Under the pieces are notes generated by a model. The model searched no databases. It had not been told where the DNA came from and saw nothing but the letters and a program-made list of their open reading frames with translations. Positions 45,867 through 54,183 of a DNA stretch of 64,000 nucleotides are shown piece after piece. The translations under genes were made by a program, and so were the position numbers. The stretch's first letter is position 1; each line of letters starts with the position of its first letter. Source of the DNA: an uncultured Dietzia sp. (GTDB lineage Bacteria; Actinomycetota; Actinomycetes; Mycobacteriales; Mycobacteriaceae); assembly GCF_937873725.1 (NCBI RefSeq), contig NZ_CALMYY010000101.1:1-64000 (forward strand), given 5' to 3'.

Positions 45867-45996
45867 TCCTTTCCAGGACGCTGTCCCCTCAGCGGTTATC
45901 CTGACCGAGGCCCGAACGCCGACTGTCGGCGGCAATGCTCACACGGTGAACATCAGCGGCGCGAACGCGCACACCCGAATCCGGAGGATTCACGAC

Positions 45997-47352
45997 ATGA
46001 CCCGACTCTTCGGCACCGACGGGGTCCGCGGACTGGCCAACCGGACGCTCACCGCGGACCTGGCGCTGCGGCTCGGAGCCGCCGCCGCGGCCGTCCTCGC
46101 GGCGGAACGCGACCACGACGGCACCGTCACCGCCCGCCCGCTGGCAGTGGTGGGACGGGACCCGCGCGTCTCCGGCGAGATGCTCGAAGCCGCCCTCTCG
46201 GCAGGCCTGTCCAGCCAGGGCGTCGACGTGCTCCTGGTGGGCGAGCTGCCCACCCCGGCCGTCGCCCACCTCACCGCCCAGCACGGGGCCGCGCTCGGCG
46301 CGATGATCTCCGCCTCGCACAACGCCATGCCGGACAACGGCATCAAGTTCTTCGCCGCCGGCGGGCACAAGCTCGGCGACCACGTCGAGGACGCCATCGA
46401 GTCCGCGCTCACCGGTGAGCCGATCACCGGCCCGACCGGTGACGCGATCGGCCGGATCAGCCGCGCCTGCCCCGCAGACGCCCTGGACGGCTATGTCGGC
46501 CATCTGCTCAGCGCCACGCCGGGTCGGCTGGACGGCCTCGTCGTCGTCGTCGACTGCGCCAACGGCGCCGCCAGCGACGCCGCGCCGCGCGCCTACCGCG
46601 AGGCCGGCGCCACGGTGATCGAGATCCACGCCAGCCCCGACGGCTACAACATCAACGACAAATGCGGCTCCACCCACCTCGACGACGTGCGCGCCGCGGT
46701 GGTCGAGCACGGCGCCGACCTCGGCCTGGCGCACGACGGCGACGCCGACCGCTGCCTCGCCGTGGACGCCGCCGGCGAGGTGGTCGACGGCGACCAGATC
46801 ATGGCCATCCTCGCCCTCGCGATGCGCGACTCCGGCGAGCTGGCGGAGAACACCCTGGTCGCCACCGTGATGAGCAACCTCGGACTCAAGGTCGCCATGC
46901 GCGAGGCGGGCATCGAGATCGCCGAGACCAAGGTCGGCGACCGGTACGTGCTCGAGCGGCTGCGCGAGGGCTCCTACAGCCTCGGCGGCGAGCAGTCCGG
47001 GCACCTCGTGCTGCCCGCGCACGCCACCACCGGCGACGGCGTCCTGACCGGCCTGCGGATCATGGCGCGGATGGCCGAGACCGGCAAGAGCCTCGCCGAG
47101 CTGGCCGGCGTCATGACCGTCCTGCCGCAGGTGCTCATCAACGTGCCCGTCGGGGACAAGGCCGCAGTGGCCGCGTCCGGCGCCGTGGCCGATGCCGTGG
47201 CGGCGGAGGAGGCGACGCTCGGTAGTGCCGGCCGCGTGCTGCTGCGCCCGTCGGGGACCGAGCAACTCGTCCGCGTGATGGTCGAGGCGCAGGACCCCGA
47301 CCTCGCGCAGGGCGTCGCCGAGCGGCTCGCGGACGTCGTCGCCGCGGTCTGA
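45997..47352 (+). CDS. glmM: Phosphoglucosamine mutase
   Basis: Converts glucosamine-6-P to glucosamine-1-P for UDP-GlcNAc and peptidoglycan, 451 aa. The phosphoserine is Ser107 in ISASHN, metal binding is in DGDADRCL, the sugar loop is GGEQSGHL, and the C-terminal phosphate site is [20 protein letters not shown] precedes the ATG. A TATCCT -10 at 45897-45902 probably drives it, with an 88-nt leader. glmS, the preceding enzyme of the pathway, lies 1 kb downstream. Confidence 0.97.
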
Positions 47353-47374: not shown

Positions 47375-48247
47375 TCAGCTCCCGGTGAGGCCCTTGACCA
47401 ACTTGAGGAGCGGCGGGGTGCTGGGGACGAGGTCGTCCCCCTCCTCGTCCAGCATCTCGTCGGTCACCGTGACGGCGCCCTTGAACCCGGCGTCGGGGTC
47501 GGCGAACGCGGCGTAGGCGTCGTCCCCCGCGAGCGTGGCCAGCAGGTAACCGGCGAGAAGCGGCCGCACCGTGCGCTGCGTGCGGTGGTCCGGGTCGGCC
47601 AGGCCGACGTACTTGAGCAGCGGGGCGCCCTCGACCAGTCCCGGCTCGATCGCCTTGGCCATGCGCCGGTGCACTATCGGCCCGCGCCACGCCAGGTGGA
47701 GTGCGCGCGCGTCCTCGGCGTGGACGCCGCCCGACGCGGACAGCAGCAACGCGGGGGCGTCGATGGTCACGGCGCGATCGGCGGCCGCGGGGACGGTCTC
47801 CGTGGGGAAGAGCATCGCCACCGCGTCGATGTCCGTGCGCTGGGACGCCAACAGGGCGCCGACCCCTCCGCCCAGCCCGTGGCCGACCAGGCCTATCCGG
47901 CGCGCATCGGCGCGGACCGCCCCCCGTCCGAGGGTGGCCTGGAGGGCGTCCTCGACGGCGGCCGACAGGTGGTCGGCGTAGTGCTGGTGGTGCGGCCGGA
48001 CCGACGTGTCGGTGGCCGGTGCCACTACGACGAAGCCCCACGACGCGAGGTGCTTGAGGGTGTCGACGTAGTGACGGGGGGCCTTGGTCCAGTCGTGCGC
48101 GAAGCCCACCAGGGGTGCGGGCGACGACGCGTCCCGGGGGACGAACACCGTGCCGGGGGTCCCGGTGAAGCCGAGATCGCCGGTGTCGACCCCGTGGGGG
48201 CCCCGGCGACTGAGCGTCTCGAGCAGTTCCTTGGTCTTGATGGCCAC
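47375..48247 (-). CDS. Alpha/beta-hydrolase-fold protein lacking the nucleophile serine
   Basis: A 290-aa dienelactone-hydrolase/PET-hydrolase-like protein. The strand-turn-helix elbow reads GLVGHGLGGG: the expected G-x-S-x-G has Gly124 where the catalytic Ser should be. The codon is GGG, read clearly. The rest of the fold is intact: FAHDWTKAPRHY, HLASWGFVVVAPATD, LLLSASGGVHAEDA. It is thus probably a non-catalytic or differently catalytic member. The GTG at 48247 is nine bases after GATACT (probably leaderless); a longer frame to 48322 overlaps glmS. It is convergent with glmM and divergent from glmS. Confidence 0.82.
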   Translation of the reverse strand: MAIKTKELLETLSRRGPHGVDTGDLGFTGTPGTVFVPRDASSPAPLVGFAHDWTKAPRHYVDTLKHLASWGFVVVAPATDTSVRPHHQHYADHLSAAVEDALQATLGRGAVRADARRIGLVGHGLGGGVGALLASQRTDIDAVAMLFPTETVPAAADRAVTIDAPALLLSASGGVHAEDARALHLAWRGPIVHRRMAKAIEPGLVEGAPLLKYVGLADPDHRTQRTVRPLLAGYLLATLAGDDAYAAFADPDAGFKGAVTVTDEMLDEEGDDLVPSTPPLLKLVKGLTGS

Positions 48248-48320
48248 GGGGCCAACAGTATCGCCTCCCGCGCACGGACGGTGCCGGGGAGCCGGGTCGG
48301 CGTGGCTACACTTAGCGCCC

Positions 48321-50177
48321 ATGTGCGGAATCGTCGGTTATGTGGGGCATCAGGCTGCCCTCCCCGTTGTGGTCGAGGCCCTACGGCGGATGGAGTACCG
48401 CGGATACGACTCGTCCGGGGTGGCCATTCTCGACGGGTCGGGCTCGTCCCGGGTCGAGAAGAAGGAGGGCAAGCTCGCCAACCTCGAGGCCGCGCTCGAC
48501 GCCGCCGGCCGGGACGGGTTCCCGGGCACCACGGGGATCGGCCACACGCGGTGGGCCACCCACGGGCGCCCGAGTGACCGCAACGCCCACCCCCACGTGT
48601 CGGGGGACGTGGCGATCGTGCACAACGGCATCATCGAGAACTTCGCCCCGCTGAGAGCCGAGCTCGAGGCCGCGGGCGTCGAGCTGGAGTCGGATACCGA
48701 CTCCGAGGTCGCCGCGCACCTGTTGGCCCGCGAGATGTCTTCCGGCCCGAACGCCGGGGACTTCGTCGCCGCGTGCCGCGCCGTGCTCAACCGCCTCGAG
48801 GGCGCGTTCACGCTGGTGTTCAGTCACGCCGCCCACCCCGACACCCTCGTCGCCGCCCGTCGCTCCACCCCGCTCGTGCTGGGCGTGGGGGAGGGGGAGA
48901 TGTTCCTCGGGTCGGACGTCGCCGCGTTCATCGAGCACACCCGCGAGGCGGTGGAGCTCGGCCAGGACAACGTGGTGGTGCTGCGGGCCGACGGATACGA
49001 GATCACCGACTTCGCCGGTGAGCCCTCCGAGGGCCGTCCGTTCCACATCGACTGGGACCTCGCCGCCGCCGAGAAGGGCGGGTACGACTACTTCATGCTC
49101 AAGGAGATCACCGAGCAGCCGGCGGCCGTGGCGGACACCCTCCTCGGCCATTTCCAGGACGGCCGCATCGTGCTGGACGAGCAGCGGATGAGCGACCAGG
49201 AACTGCGGGACATCGACAAGGTGTTCATCGTGGCCTGCGGCAGTGCCTACCACTCCGGGATGGTGGCCAAGTACGCGATCGAGCACTGGACGCGGCTGCC
49301 GTGTGAGGTCGAGATCGCCTCGGAGTTCCGCTACCGCGACCCCGTGCTGGACCGGTCCACCCTGGTGGTGGCGATCTCCCAGTCCGGCGAGACCGCCGAC
49401 ACCCTCGAGGCGGTGCGACACGCCAGGGCGCAGAAGGCCCGCGTGTTGGCGGTGTGCAACACCAACGGCTCGCAGATCCCCCGGGAGGCCGACGCCGTGC
49501 TCTACACGCACGCCGGCCCCGAGATCGGCGTGGCGTCCACCAAGGCGTACCTCGCGCAGATCACCGCCAACTACCTCGTCGGCCTGGCGTTGGCGCAGGC
49601 CCGCGGCACCAAGTACCCCGACGAGGTGGCCGCCGAGTTCCGCCAGCTCGAGCAGATGCCGGCCCTCATCCAGCAGGTCGTGGACTCCCTGGAGCCGGTC
49701 CGCGAGATCGCGCGGGAGCTGGCCGACTCCAAATCCGTGCTGTTCCTCGGTCGTCACGTCGGCTACCCGACGGCGCTCGAGGGCGCGCTCAAGCTCAAGG
49801 AGCTCGCGTACATGCACGCGGAGGGTTTCCCCGCCGGCGAGCTCAAGCACGGCCCCATCGCGCTCATCGAGGACGGCCTGCCCGTCTTTGTGGTGATGCC
49901 CCCCGTCGAGGGCCGCGGGGTCCTCCACTCCAAGCTGGTGAGCAACATCCAGGAGATCCGGGCCCGCGGCGCGCGGACCATCGTGATCGCCGAGGAGGGT
50001 GACGAGGTGGTGCGGCCGCTGGCGGACCACTTCATCCCGATCCCGGCCACGACCACGCTCCTGCAGCCGCTGCTGGCCACGATCCCGTATCAGGCGTTCG
50101 CCGCCGAGGTGGCCGCCGCCCGCGGCTACGACGTGGACAAGCCGCGCAACCTGGCCAAGTCCGTCACGGTGGAGTGA
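48321..50177 (+). CDS. glmS: Glutamine-fructose-6-phosphate aminotransferase (isomerising)
   Basis: First step of UDP-GlcNAc synthesis, 618 aa. The N-terminal nucleophile Cys2 follows Met1 (MCGIVGYVG), and the glutaminase domain has GHTRWATHG and HNGIIEN. Two SIS sugar-isomerase domains follow (ACGSAYHSGM, SQSGETADTLEA, GRHVGYPTALEGALKLKE), ending in LAKSVTVE. The ATG is eight bases after TACACT without a Shine-Dalgarno, so it is probably leaderless; no glmS ribozyme is present or expected in this lineage. Confidence 0.98.
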   Translation: MCGIVGYVGHQAALPVVVEALRRMEYRGYDSSGVAILDGSGSSRVEKKEGKLANLEAALDAAGRDGFPGTTGIGHTRWATHGRPSDRNAHPHVSGDVAIVHNGIIENFAPLRAELEAAGVELESDTDSEVAAHLLAREMSSGPNAGDFVAACRAVLNRLEGAFTLVFSHAAHPDTLVAARRSTPLVLGVGEGEMFLGSDVAAFIEHTREAVELGQDNVVVLRADGYEITDFAGEPSEGRPFHIDWDLAAAEKGGYDYFMLKEITEQPAAVADTLLGHFQDGRIVLDEQRMSDQELRDIDKVFIVACGSAYHSGMVAKYAIEHWTRLPCEVEIASEFRYRDPVLDRSTLVVAISQSGETADTLEAVRHARAQKARVLAVCNTNGSQIPREADAVLYTHAGPEIGVASTKAYLAQITANYLVGLALAQARGTKYPDEVAAEFRQLEQMPALIQQVVDSLEPVREIARELADSKSVLFLGRHVGYPTALEGALKLKELAYMHAEGFPAGELKHGPIALIEDGLPVFVVMPPVEGRGVLHSKLVSNIQEIRARGARTIVIAEEGDEVVRPLADHFIPIPATTTLLQPLLATIPYQAFAAEVAAARGYDVDKPRNLAKSVTVE

Positions 50178-51736: not shown

Positions 51737-52933
51737 ATGGGTCTGATTGTCCCGCCGGCGCCGTGCCGCGCCGAGATCGATCTGGACGCGATCGAGCACA
51801 ACGCCCGCGTCCTGCTCCGGTCTGCCCGCGGCGCGCGGGTGATGGCCGTGGTCAAGGCCGACGCCTACGGCCACGGTGCCGTCCCGGTCTCCCTCGCGGC
51901 GCTGCGCGGGGGTGCGGACGCCCTCGGGGTGACCACGATCGGGGAGGCGCTCGAACTGCGCGGGGCGGGGATCGACGCGGAGATCCTGGCCTGGCTCTAC
52001 TCGGCCGGCGACGACGTCCGTTCCGCTCTGGAGGCAGACGTGGACCTCGCGGTCCCCGGGCCCGGTCACCTCGACACCATCCTCGACGCCGCGCGCCGCA
52101 CCGGCCGCCGCGCCCGGGTGACCCCCAAGATCGACACCGGGCTCGCCCGCTCCGGGATCACGCTGGACGACTGGCCCGCCGTCCTCGACAGGCTGGTGGA
52201 CGCCTCGGAGGAGGGGCTCATCGAGGTCACCGGGTTGATGGCGCACTTCGCGCATGCCGACGACCCGGGGAACCCGGTGATCGACCAGCAGGTGGCGCGG
52301 CTGCACGAGTGCGTGGCGCAGGCCCGCGCGCGCGGCCTGGACTGCCCCGTCAACCACCACGCCAACTCGGCCGCGACGCTGACCCGCCCGGAGGACGGCT
52401 TCGAGATGGTCCGGCCCGGGATCGCCCTGTACGGGCTCTCCCCGGTCGACGACCCGGGGGTGGAGCTCATTCCGGCCATGACGTTCTCGGCGGAGGTCCT
52501 GATGACCAAGCGGCTGGCGGCCGGTCAGGGTGTGAGCTACGGGCACACCTGGCACGCGCCCCGCGACACCACGGTCGCGCTCGTGGCGGCGGGGTACGCC
52601 GACGGGGTGTGGCGCCTGCTCTCGGGCAGGCTCGACGTCTCGATCGGTGGCCGTCGGTACCCGAACGTCGGTCGCGTCTGCATGGACCAGTTCGTCGTGG
52701 ACCTCGGGCCGGACCCGGGTGACGCGGTGCGGGCGGGCGACACCGCGGTCCTGTTCGGTGCGGGTTCCGACGGGGGCCCCACGGCCGCCGAGTGGGCGCG
52801 GGCCCTGGGGACCATCCACTACGAGGTCGTCACCGCCGTCCGCGGCCGGGCGAGCCGCCAGTACGTTCTCAGGGGGCACCACGTCCCCGGGGGCAACGGT
52901 GTCCCCGGGGGGCACAGGGAGGGTCAACGATGA
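51737..52933 (+). CDS. alr: Alanine racemase
   Basis: PLP enzyme that makes D-alanine for peptidoglycan, 398 aa from this start. The PLP lysine is Lys40 in VVKADAYGHG, the second catalytic base is the Tyr in GVSYGHTW, and PNVGRVCMDQF is conserved. In-frame ATGs at 51692, 51728 and 51737 are possible. The last is preferred because it lies seven bases after a CATAAT hexamer and no candidate has a Shine-Dalgarno; this gives the normal N-terminus. Its stop overlaps the next ATG (ATGA). Confidence 0.95.
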   Translation: MGLIVPPAPCRAEIDLDAIEHNARVLLRSARGARVMAVVKADAYGHGAVPVSLAALRGGADALGVTTIGEALELRGAGIDAEILAWLYSAGDDVRSALEADVDLAVPGPGHLDTILDAARRTGRRARVTPKIDTGLARSGITLDDWPAVLDRLVDASEEGLIEVTGLMAHFAHADDPGNPVIDQQVARLHECVAQARARGLDCPVNHHANSAATLTRPEDGFEMVRPGIALYGLSPVDDPGVELIPAMTFSAEVLMTKRLAAGQGVSYGHTWHAPRDTTVALVAAGYADGVWRLLSGRLDVSIGGRRYPNVGRVCMDQFVVDLGPDPGDAVRAGDTAVLFGAGSDGGPTAAEWARALGTIHYEVVTAVRGRASRQYVLRGHHVPGGNGVPGGHREGQR

Positions 52934-54183
52934 GCGAGAACCAGGACACCGCGGATCGTCGCGGGGGTAGGCCGCGGATCCGGTTGCCCCGCCGCCCCAC
53001 CCGGACCCCGGGGGAGGAGCCGGTCGAGGTCCGGCCCCCCGAGCTCGTCGGCGGGGATCCGGCTGACGTCGAGGCGGTGGCCGAACAGATCCGCACGCCC
53101 GGCGGCCTGGCCGCGGGGCTCAGCGCACTCGGGGCGGCCACCATCGGATCCGTCGGCACGCTCCTGCCCGGGCGGCGGGCCAACGACCCGTGGGCGGGCG
53201 AGGACATGTGGGAACTGGGCGTGGACCGCGGCTCGATGGTCGCCGCCTCGGACGGCGTCCCGCTGGCCGTGCGCGAGGCCGGGCCGACCGACGCCCCGAT
53301 GACGGTGGTGTTCGCCCACGGCTACACGCTCTCGATGGATTCCTGGCACTTCCAGCGCCGGCACCTGCAGGACCGGTTCGGGTCCGAGGTCCGGATGGTG
53401 TTCTACGACCAGCGCGGTCACGGCCTCAGCGGGAAGAGTTCCCGTGCCAACTCGACCATCGCGCAGCTCGCCTCCGACCTCGACACGGTCGTCTCGGCGA
53501 CGGCCCCGACGGGCCCGATCGTGGTGATCGGTCACTCCATGGGGGGCATGACCGTCATGGGCTACGCCGCCCGCCACCCCGGGTCCGTCCGCGAGCGGGT
53601 CCTGGGGGTGGGGCTGGTCGCCACCGCCATGGCCGAGCTGTCCGAGGCGGGGCTCGGCGCGGTGCTCGACAGCAGGACCGTCGCCAGGGTCGCGGGTCTC
53701 GCCGGACGGACCCCCGGCGTGTTCACCGGCGGGCGACGAGCCCTCGGCGCGCTCATCTCCCCGTTCATCTACGGTGGCTCGTTCGGCGACCCGGCCAGGA
53801 TGAGCCCGACCGTCGCCAGGTTCGTGGACAAGCTCATCGCGTCGACCGACGTGCTGACCATCGCGAACTTCTTCGAGACCCTCACCCAACACGACGAGAC
53901 CGCCGCGATGCCCGTGTTGCGGTCCGTGCGCACCACCGTGCTGTGCGGCGACCGCGACCTGCTCACCCCGCTCGACCGGTCCGTGGACATCGCGGAGGCG
54001 CTGCCGGACGCGGAGTTCGTCGTGGTCCCGGGGTGCGGTCACATGGTGATGATGGAGGAGCCCGCACACGTCTCCGAGGTCCTCGGTGACCTCATCGCGG
54101 ACGCGATCGTCGAGTGGCGCACGCGTATCCGCGCCGCCGAGGAGAACGGCGGCCCCCCGGCGGGGCACAGCAAGGCCTCGTGA
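52930..54183 (+). CDS. Alpha/beta hydrolase
   Basis: A 417-aa hydrolase: a basic, Pro-rich N-terminal region (about 1-75) with a weakly hydrophobic Gly/Ala segment, then a canonical fold with HGYTLS, YDQRGHGLSG, the nucleophile elbow GHSMGGMT, the acid in LCGDRDLLTP and the His in GCGHMVMME. The substrate is unknown. It is embedded by four-base overlaps between alr and tsaE, an arrangement I recall as common in corynebacteria and rhodococci. Confidence 0.88.
   Translation: MSENQDTADRRGGRPRIRLPRRPTRTPGEEPVEVRPPELVGGDPADVEAVAEQIRTPGGLAAGLSALGAATIGSVGTLLPGRRANDPWAGEDMWELGVDRGSMVAASDGVPLAVREAGPTDAPMTVVFAHGYTLSMDSWHFQRRHLQDRFGSEVRMVFYDQRGHGLSGKSSRANSTIAQLASDLDTVVSATAPTGPIVVIGHSMGGMTVMGYAARHPGSVRERVLGVGLVATAMAELSEAGLGAVLDSRTVARVAGLAGRTPGVFTGGRRALGALISPFIYGGSFGDPARMSPTVARFVDKLIASTDVLTIANFFETLTQHDETAAMPVLRSVRTTVLCGDRDLLTPLDRSVDIAEALPDAEFVVVPGCGHMVMMEEPAHVSEVLGDLIADAIVEWRTRIRAAEENGGPPAGHSKAS

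Follow-up and report, generated by a model that had tools for sequence, protein, structure and literature searches.

A Dietzia alpha/beta-hydrolase-fold protein encoded beside glmS lacks the catalytic triad and is probably a core pseudoenzyme of its family

Neuroligins and NDRG proteins have kept the alpha/beta-hydrolase fold, lost catalysis and serve another role. To our knowledge, most of the pseudoenzymes described with this fold are eukaryotic. In the window, the whole stretch of 64,000 nucleotides of Dietzia DNA that we analysed, we found a gene whose product can be likened to these eukaryotic proteins at the level of fold, but which belongs to a bacterial group with repeated loss of the nucleophile. 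It lies beside glmS, which brings to mind the bacterial amino-sugar regulators GlmR and RapZ. Their folds differ from the alpha/beta hydrolase, however, and these regulators of amino-sugar supply would share with the Dietzia protein at most a way of working, namely amino-sugar sensing near GlmS.

The gene (positions 47375 to 48247, minus strand) encodes 290 amino acids, from a GTG start at 48247 to a stop at 47375. Its placement between glmM and glmS, as described in the sequence-only reading, is correct: the convergent glmM (45946 to 47352, plus strand; the start is that of the open reading frame list, and 45997 was used in the computations) ends at 47352, and the divergent glmS (48321 to 50177, plus strand) starts with ATG at 48321. 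The two divergent start codons are only 73 bp apart (48248 to 48320). Within this stretch, a −10-like hexamer TACTGT (48255 to 48260, minus strand) stands 7 nt ahead of the GTG, and a second one, TACACT (48307 to 48312, plus strand), 8 nt ahead of the glmS ATG, these distances being those of the window. The former is kept shortly before the GTG in all of 9 Dietzia sequences. The latter is exact in 7 of 9 sequences, while one of the remaining two has TACAAT and the other, L009, is unaligned there. TACTGT is a possible leaderless promoter of the hydrolase-like gene, and from the facing hexamers we infer that two leaderless transcripts, one for this gene and one for glmS, may arise here. The same protein is encoded with 100% identity on a contig of Dietzia sp. 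UBA5065, and the window's own genome contained no match to it at E 0.001 other than itself.

The nucleophile elbow reads GHGLGG, and residue 124, where serine is expected, is glycine (codon GGG, 47876 to 47878, minus strand), just as first described. No Ser, Cys or Thr that could act as an alternative nucleophile occurs within this elbow. Position 124 is Gly in all 11 Dietzia sequences (among them L001, identical to the window), and since this invariant residue is encoded by four different codons (GGG, GGC, GGT and GGA), chance or a sequencing slip is excluded. A pseudogene or sequencing error was considered as well and ruled out, the open reading frame being intact and the glycine common to the Dietzia sequences read. 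The fold had been described as otherwise well preserved. Family profiles do score above their cut-offs, but the triad has lost more than its Ser, because its Asp and His are also replaced, by Gly174 (47726 to 47728, minus strand) and Glu201 (47645 to 47647, minus strand). Gly124, Gly174 and Glu201 are invariant across nine aligned Dietzia proteins (window plus eight). Among orthologues that carry the Ser, the triad consists of Ser124, Asp174 and His201 and is complete in 45 rows of the families f14, f4 and f15. The Ser and Asp positions were aligned directly with PET hydrolases, and position 174 falls in their acid region. The His position was assigned from orthologues only, through the K-A-x-H-L-G-x-x-E-G block that Ser-bearing members conserve, because the listed matches to solved structures stop before the His.

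We then looked at the family assignment. All Pfam matches of the window protein were above cut-offs (Chlorophyllase 4.9e-10, PETase 8.7e-9, DLH 2.9e-6). For PF12740 it reached 35.6 bits against a cut-off of 28, and at E 0.001 this profile matched 33 of 35 members of the group, Chlorophyllase (PF07224) 34 of 35 and dienelactone hydrolase (PF01738) 24 of 35. In the Protein Data Bank, a profile of the 35 orthologues retrieved PET hydrolases and cutinases, with a leaf-branch compost cutinase as its best match (E 3.4e-18). For the window protein, no NCBIfam model scored above its cut-off, the highest value being 27.6 bits versus 520; over the 35 members, the best E was 9.6e-13, to a model with a 520-bit cut-off. 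Two structure predictions came from shallow alignments, one of nine rows (A1, the window plus eight of the 11 Dietzia loci) and one that added the distant hydrolases L012 and L013 to the same rows (A3). Both models were poor (mean pLDDT 33.4 and 35.6), so fold and pocket are read here from sequence profiles and alignments. By these profiles, the protein would have an alpha/beta-hydrolase fold and be a relative of PET hydrolases and cutinases. With the latter it shares the GH-x-x-G-G elbow context, but the Ser of GxSxG and the catalytic Asp and His that mark serine hydrolases of PF12740 are all absent in Dietzia, where the protein is instead the product of a core gene beside glmS. The likeness to the chlorophyllase and dienelactone hydrolase families is likewise one of profiles, the Dietzia protein having no nucleophile. 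Dienelactone hydrolases use a Cys as nucleophile, whereas the Dietzia protein has Gly124 and only G, S, A and T occur at this position in 176 rows. No secretion signal was seen when the N-terminus was inspected by eye.

Across the order, the gene was detected at E 1e-10 or better in 130 of 298 genomes searched, and the sequences of all but 13 of these 130 were retrieved. Within f1, the family of Dietzia (families are coded), it is present in 248 of 251 genomes. At a completeness of 90% or more it is found in 238 of 238, among them small genomes of 1.9–2.5 Mb; the three f1 genomes without it are 66–87% complete. A class-wide profile search at 1e-20 gave matches in 38 of 345 genomes, namely 31 of f1, one of f14, one of f15 (8.7e-50) and five from other families with weaker scores (5.7e-46 to 2.0e-40). 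Two scans of viral contigs for further relatives found none.

To follow position 124 through the families, one row per genome was counted. The f1 counts omit the 11 loci of named Dietzia, some of which may already be present as rows counted. L172_G308 was left out because, at 27% identity, with the elbow GHSQG and in a genome that is 66% complete, its orthology is doubtful. The residue is almost always Gly in f1 (98 Gly, 2 Ser and 1 Ala in 101 genomes) and mostly Ser in f14 (30 Ser, 8 Gly, 5 Ala; 43 genomes), f4 (11 Ser, 4 Gly, 1 Thr; 16 genomes) and f15 (5 Ser in 5 genomes). Whether glycine is fixed among orthologues thus has a divided answer: it is near-fixed within f1, but Ser, which the sequence-only reading had named as refuting its proposal if orthologues carried it, stands in 46 of 64 rows of the other three families and in 2 of 101 of f1, both of these lacking the His. 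A complete Ser-Asp-His triad was found in 0 of 101 f1 rows, 30 of 43 f14 rows, 10 of 16 f4 rows and 5 of 5 f15 rows. That is, the absence of the catalytic residues is itself conserved in f1, in a gene kept by 238 of 238 good genomes. We consider it very likely that the Gly124 protein carries out no serine-type hydrolysis.

Of the 101 f1 rows, 36 are without Asp174 (65 keep it) and 97 are without His201. His201 remains in four, L128, L181, L190 and L191, which combine Gly124 with both Asp174 and His201, and is absent from both f1 rows with Ser124, L152 (G398) and L158 (G305). The f14 and f4 families together have 18 Ser-less rows, of which 17 have kept both residues, meaning either that these losses of Ser are young or that Asp and His have another job there. 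Such retention is what one would expect of an enzyme with changed chemistry, in which Ser, Ala and Gly are interchangeable and the reaction is Ser-free, for instance through His- or Asp-activated water or as a lyase or isomerase step. On supported branches, nine independent pairs with a difference at Ser point the same way, with the same His in 7–8 and the same Asp in all 9. However, with His201 nearly gone from f1 and both residues absent in Dietzia, neither would be available there for a reaction of this kind, and we regard this explanation as improbable.

The number and route of the losses were read from a tree of 130 of the 177 rows, from which the three catalytic columns had been removed (47 rows were dropped as near-duplicates, or as L172_G308). 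In the best tree f1, f14 and f4 each form one group (support 90/97, 97/81 and 100/100, the f1 branch not being starred), and the minimum number of changes is at least 11 for Ser/non-Ser, 5 for His and 13 for Asp. With Ser taken as ancestral and the distant f15 as outgroup, the 11 changes can be read as about ten losses and one regain. The latter is G398 in f1, which adjoins an Ala member in the tree and has probably regained Ser without the triad His. All 48 of 48 Ser124 codons are TCN, with zero AGY, so two substitutions separate the Ser codons from those of Gly and Ala is a one-step intermediate. A seven-member f14 clade, in which two Gly members are nested among five Ala members, suggests this route from Ser via Ala to Gly. 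In f1, GGC, GGG, GGT and GGA are all used for Gly124. As a control, we examined a second alpha/beta hydrolase of the window (52837 to 54180, downstream of alr, elbow GHSMGG), which has matches in 96 of 121 genomes of the order. Its Ser was present in 30 of 30 loci read out of these 96, its own included, which speaks against a general trend of nucleophile loss in these lineages.

Could the gene simply be on its way out, a drifting remnant of a lost hydrolase? Its catalytic residues vary, and the median root-to-tip paths are longer in f1 (2.17) than in f14 (1.19; f4 1.79), which fits relaxed or changed constraint, although lineage rate is uncontrolled in these values. In Dietzia, its median pN/pS of 0.31 (11 sequences) is above those of glmM (0.23, 9 sequences) and glmS (0.15, 11 sequences). 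By this measure the gene is nevertheless under purifying selection in Dietzia, and it is kept in every good genome of f1. Furthermore, His51, Trp53 and Trp70 are each found in at least 111 of 112 f1 rows, and we therefore consider decay very unlikely.

These residues lie around the former active site. The codons of His51-Asp52-Trp53, a loop on the oxyanion side whose His and Trp are nearly invariant across orthologues, lie at 48089 to 48097 (minus strand). Including the named rows (112 in total), f1 has His51 in 111, Trp53 in 112, Tyr60 in 111, Trp70 in 112, His123 in 111, Arg194 in 108 and Glu206 in 105; among the 59 rows of f14 and f4 the corresponding counts are 59, 57, 59, 59, 59, 58 and 57. 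Near-invariant with or without the triad, the active-site surroundings have thus outlasted it. His51 is also found in 5 of 5 f15 rows and the GH ahead of the nucleophile also in PET hydrolases. The conservation is therefore partly that of the ordinary fold and weak proof of a new binding role, and we lean only slightly towards the old pocket serving as a putative binding site.

Since an amino-sugar pathway context had been proposed from the two flanking genes, we analysed the neighbourhood (the counts leave out the named Dietzia loci). Counting only loci that span 8 kb or more, we found glmS no further than 4.5 kb away in 33 of 35 f1, 40 of 43 f14 and 11 of 15 f4 loci, and glmM in 5 of 35, 2 of 43 and 11 of 15. 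The glmS gene is divergent in 90 of 101 f1 rows (gap below 500 bp in 76, median 95.5, largest 3409), in 40 of 43 f14 rows (every gap below 500 bp, median 129) and in 11 of 16 f4 rows (zero gaps below 500 bp, median 2034), and the f15 stretches examined contained no glmS. In genus g5 of f1, the gene is co-directed with and close to glmS in five more genomes (L058, L059, L060, L062 and L165). In L058 and L059, the g5 loci that reach far enough, it is located between glmM and glmS, all three in the same direction.

This neighbourhood would suit a protein that responds to an amino sugar and, as partner or regulator, acts on GlmS (or GlmM), the product of the adjacent gene. The retention in Dietzia of a −10-like box before each of the two divergent genes would suit it as well, and the action could resemble that of Bacillus GlmR. 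Fourteen genomes, however, had no glmS within the stretch examined around the gene. Seven of them (G301, G304, G310, G122, G080, G051 and G087) carry a 69–77% identical glmS 2–9 kb off, and six (G238, G191, G274, G192, G188 and G108) just a 43–47% identical glmS elsewhere (search threshold E 1e-60). In G368 (81% complete) no glmS was found. In G238, G191, G274, G192 and G188 (loci L130, L057, L080, L109 and L119), an nnr match starts 75–541 bp from the gene match at the glmS site; in these five genomes the native glmS was apparently removed while the hydrolase-like gene stayed. Replacement of native glmS by a distant copy has apparently occurred several times within the order (these five genomes and G108). 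Two g6 genomes among those with replaced glmS have the unusual elbows GDGFGV and GHGWGT, and constraint may have loosened there.

A strict GlmS partnership is weakened by this persistence, as a GlmS regulator would be expected to stay tied to its native partner wherever present and in five genomes the gene is not. The median gap of about 2 kb in f4 argues against it too, and divergent gene pairs can persist without a functional tie. We thus find such a partnership rather doubtful. What stands of the proposed link is glmS as the usual neighbour; glmM is mostly distant in f1 and f14, and the gene outlives native glmS. A tie to amino-sugar or envelope-precursor supply in a wider sense is tentative at best, and the amino-sugar idea a reasonable but weak lead.

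Among the literature matches listed, no study describes the Gly124 protein. We take Rv3438 to be its orthologue in M. tuberculosis, while MSMEG_1567 is perhaps that of M. smegmatis, judging from its position. In one study, Rv3438 is counted among nonessential genes (PMC6395927), which counts against a core pseudoenzyme. A second study lists MSMEG_1567 as a hypothetical protein and reports an excess of its transposon mutants under dibucaine (PMC10127668); MSMEG_1566 is listed as an oxidoreductase.

Taken together, the near-fixed Gly in f1, the lost triad of Dietzia, the presence in 238 of 238 genomes and the purifying selection support the initial suggestion of a pseudoenzyme. In our judgement, the Gly124 protein is probably a core pseudoenzyme that derives from a true hydrolase and is kept family-wide. 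Its ancestor was most likely a Ser-Asp-His hydrolase of the PET-hydrolase/chlorophyllase type, because other families of the order keep the triad, mostly beside glmS. In the family of Dietzia, the Ser would then have given way to Gly, probably via Ala, and the His would have been lost in nearly all members; Dietzia would additionally have lost the Asp, with the gene staying universal and constrained. The old pocket (His51, Trp53, Tyr60, Trp70, His123, Arg194 and Glu206) may bind a small ligand or a protein without hydrolysis. A less likely reading is that non-hydrolytic binding, as an envelope-precursor sensor kept throughout the family of Dietzia and Mycobacterium, has been the real job of the whole group, with Ser dispensable from the start and hydrolysis a side activity. 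If so, hydrolysis disappeared about ten times and came back in part once, in G398, where Ser stands without the His.

Neither the Pfam nor the NCBIfam scan gives the Gly form a family of its own. This form is a core gene of a whole bacterial family, at one end of a bacterial and mostly syntenic series of orthologues that runs from Ser-Asp-His through Ala intermediates and Gly with His to Gly without His. Such a series allows one to measure what remains of a hydrolase once catalysis goes.
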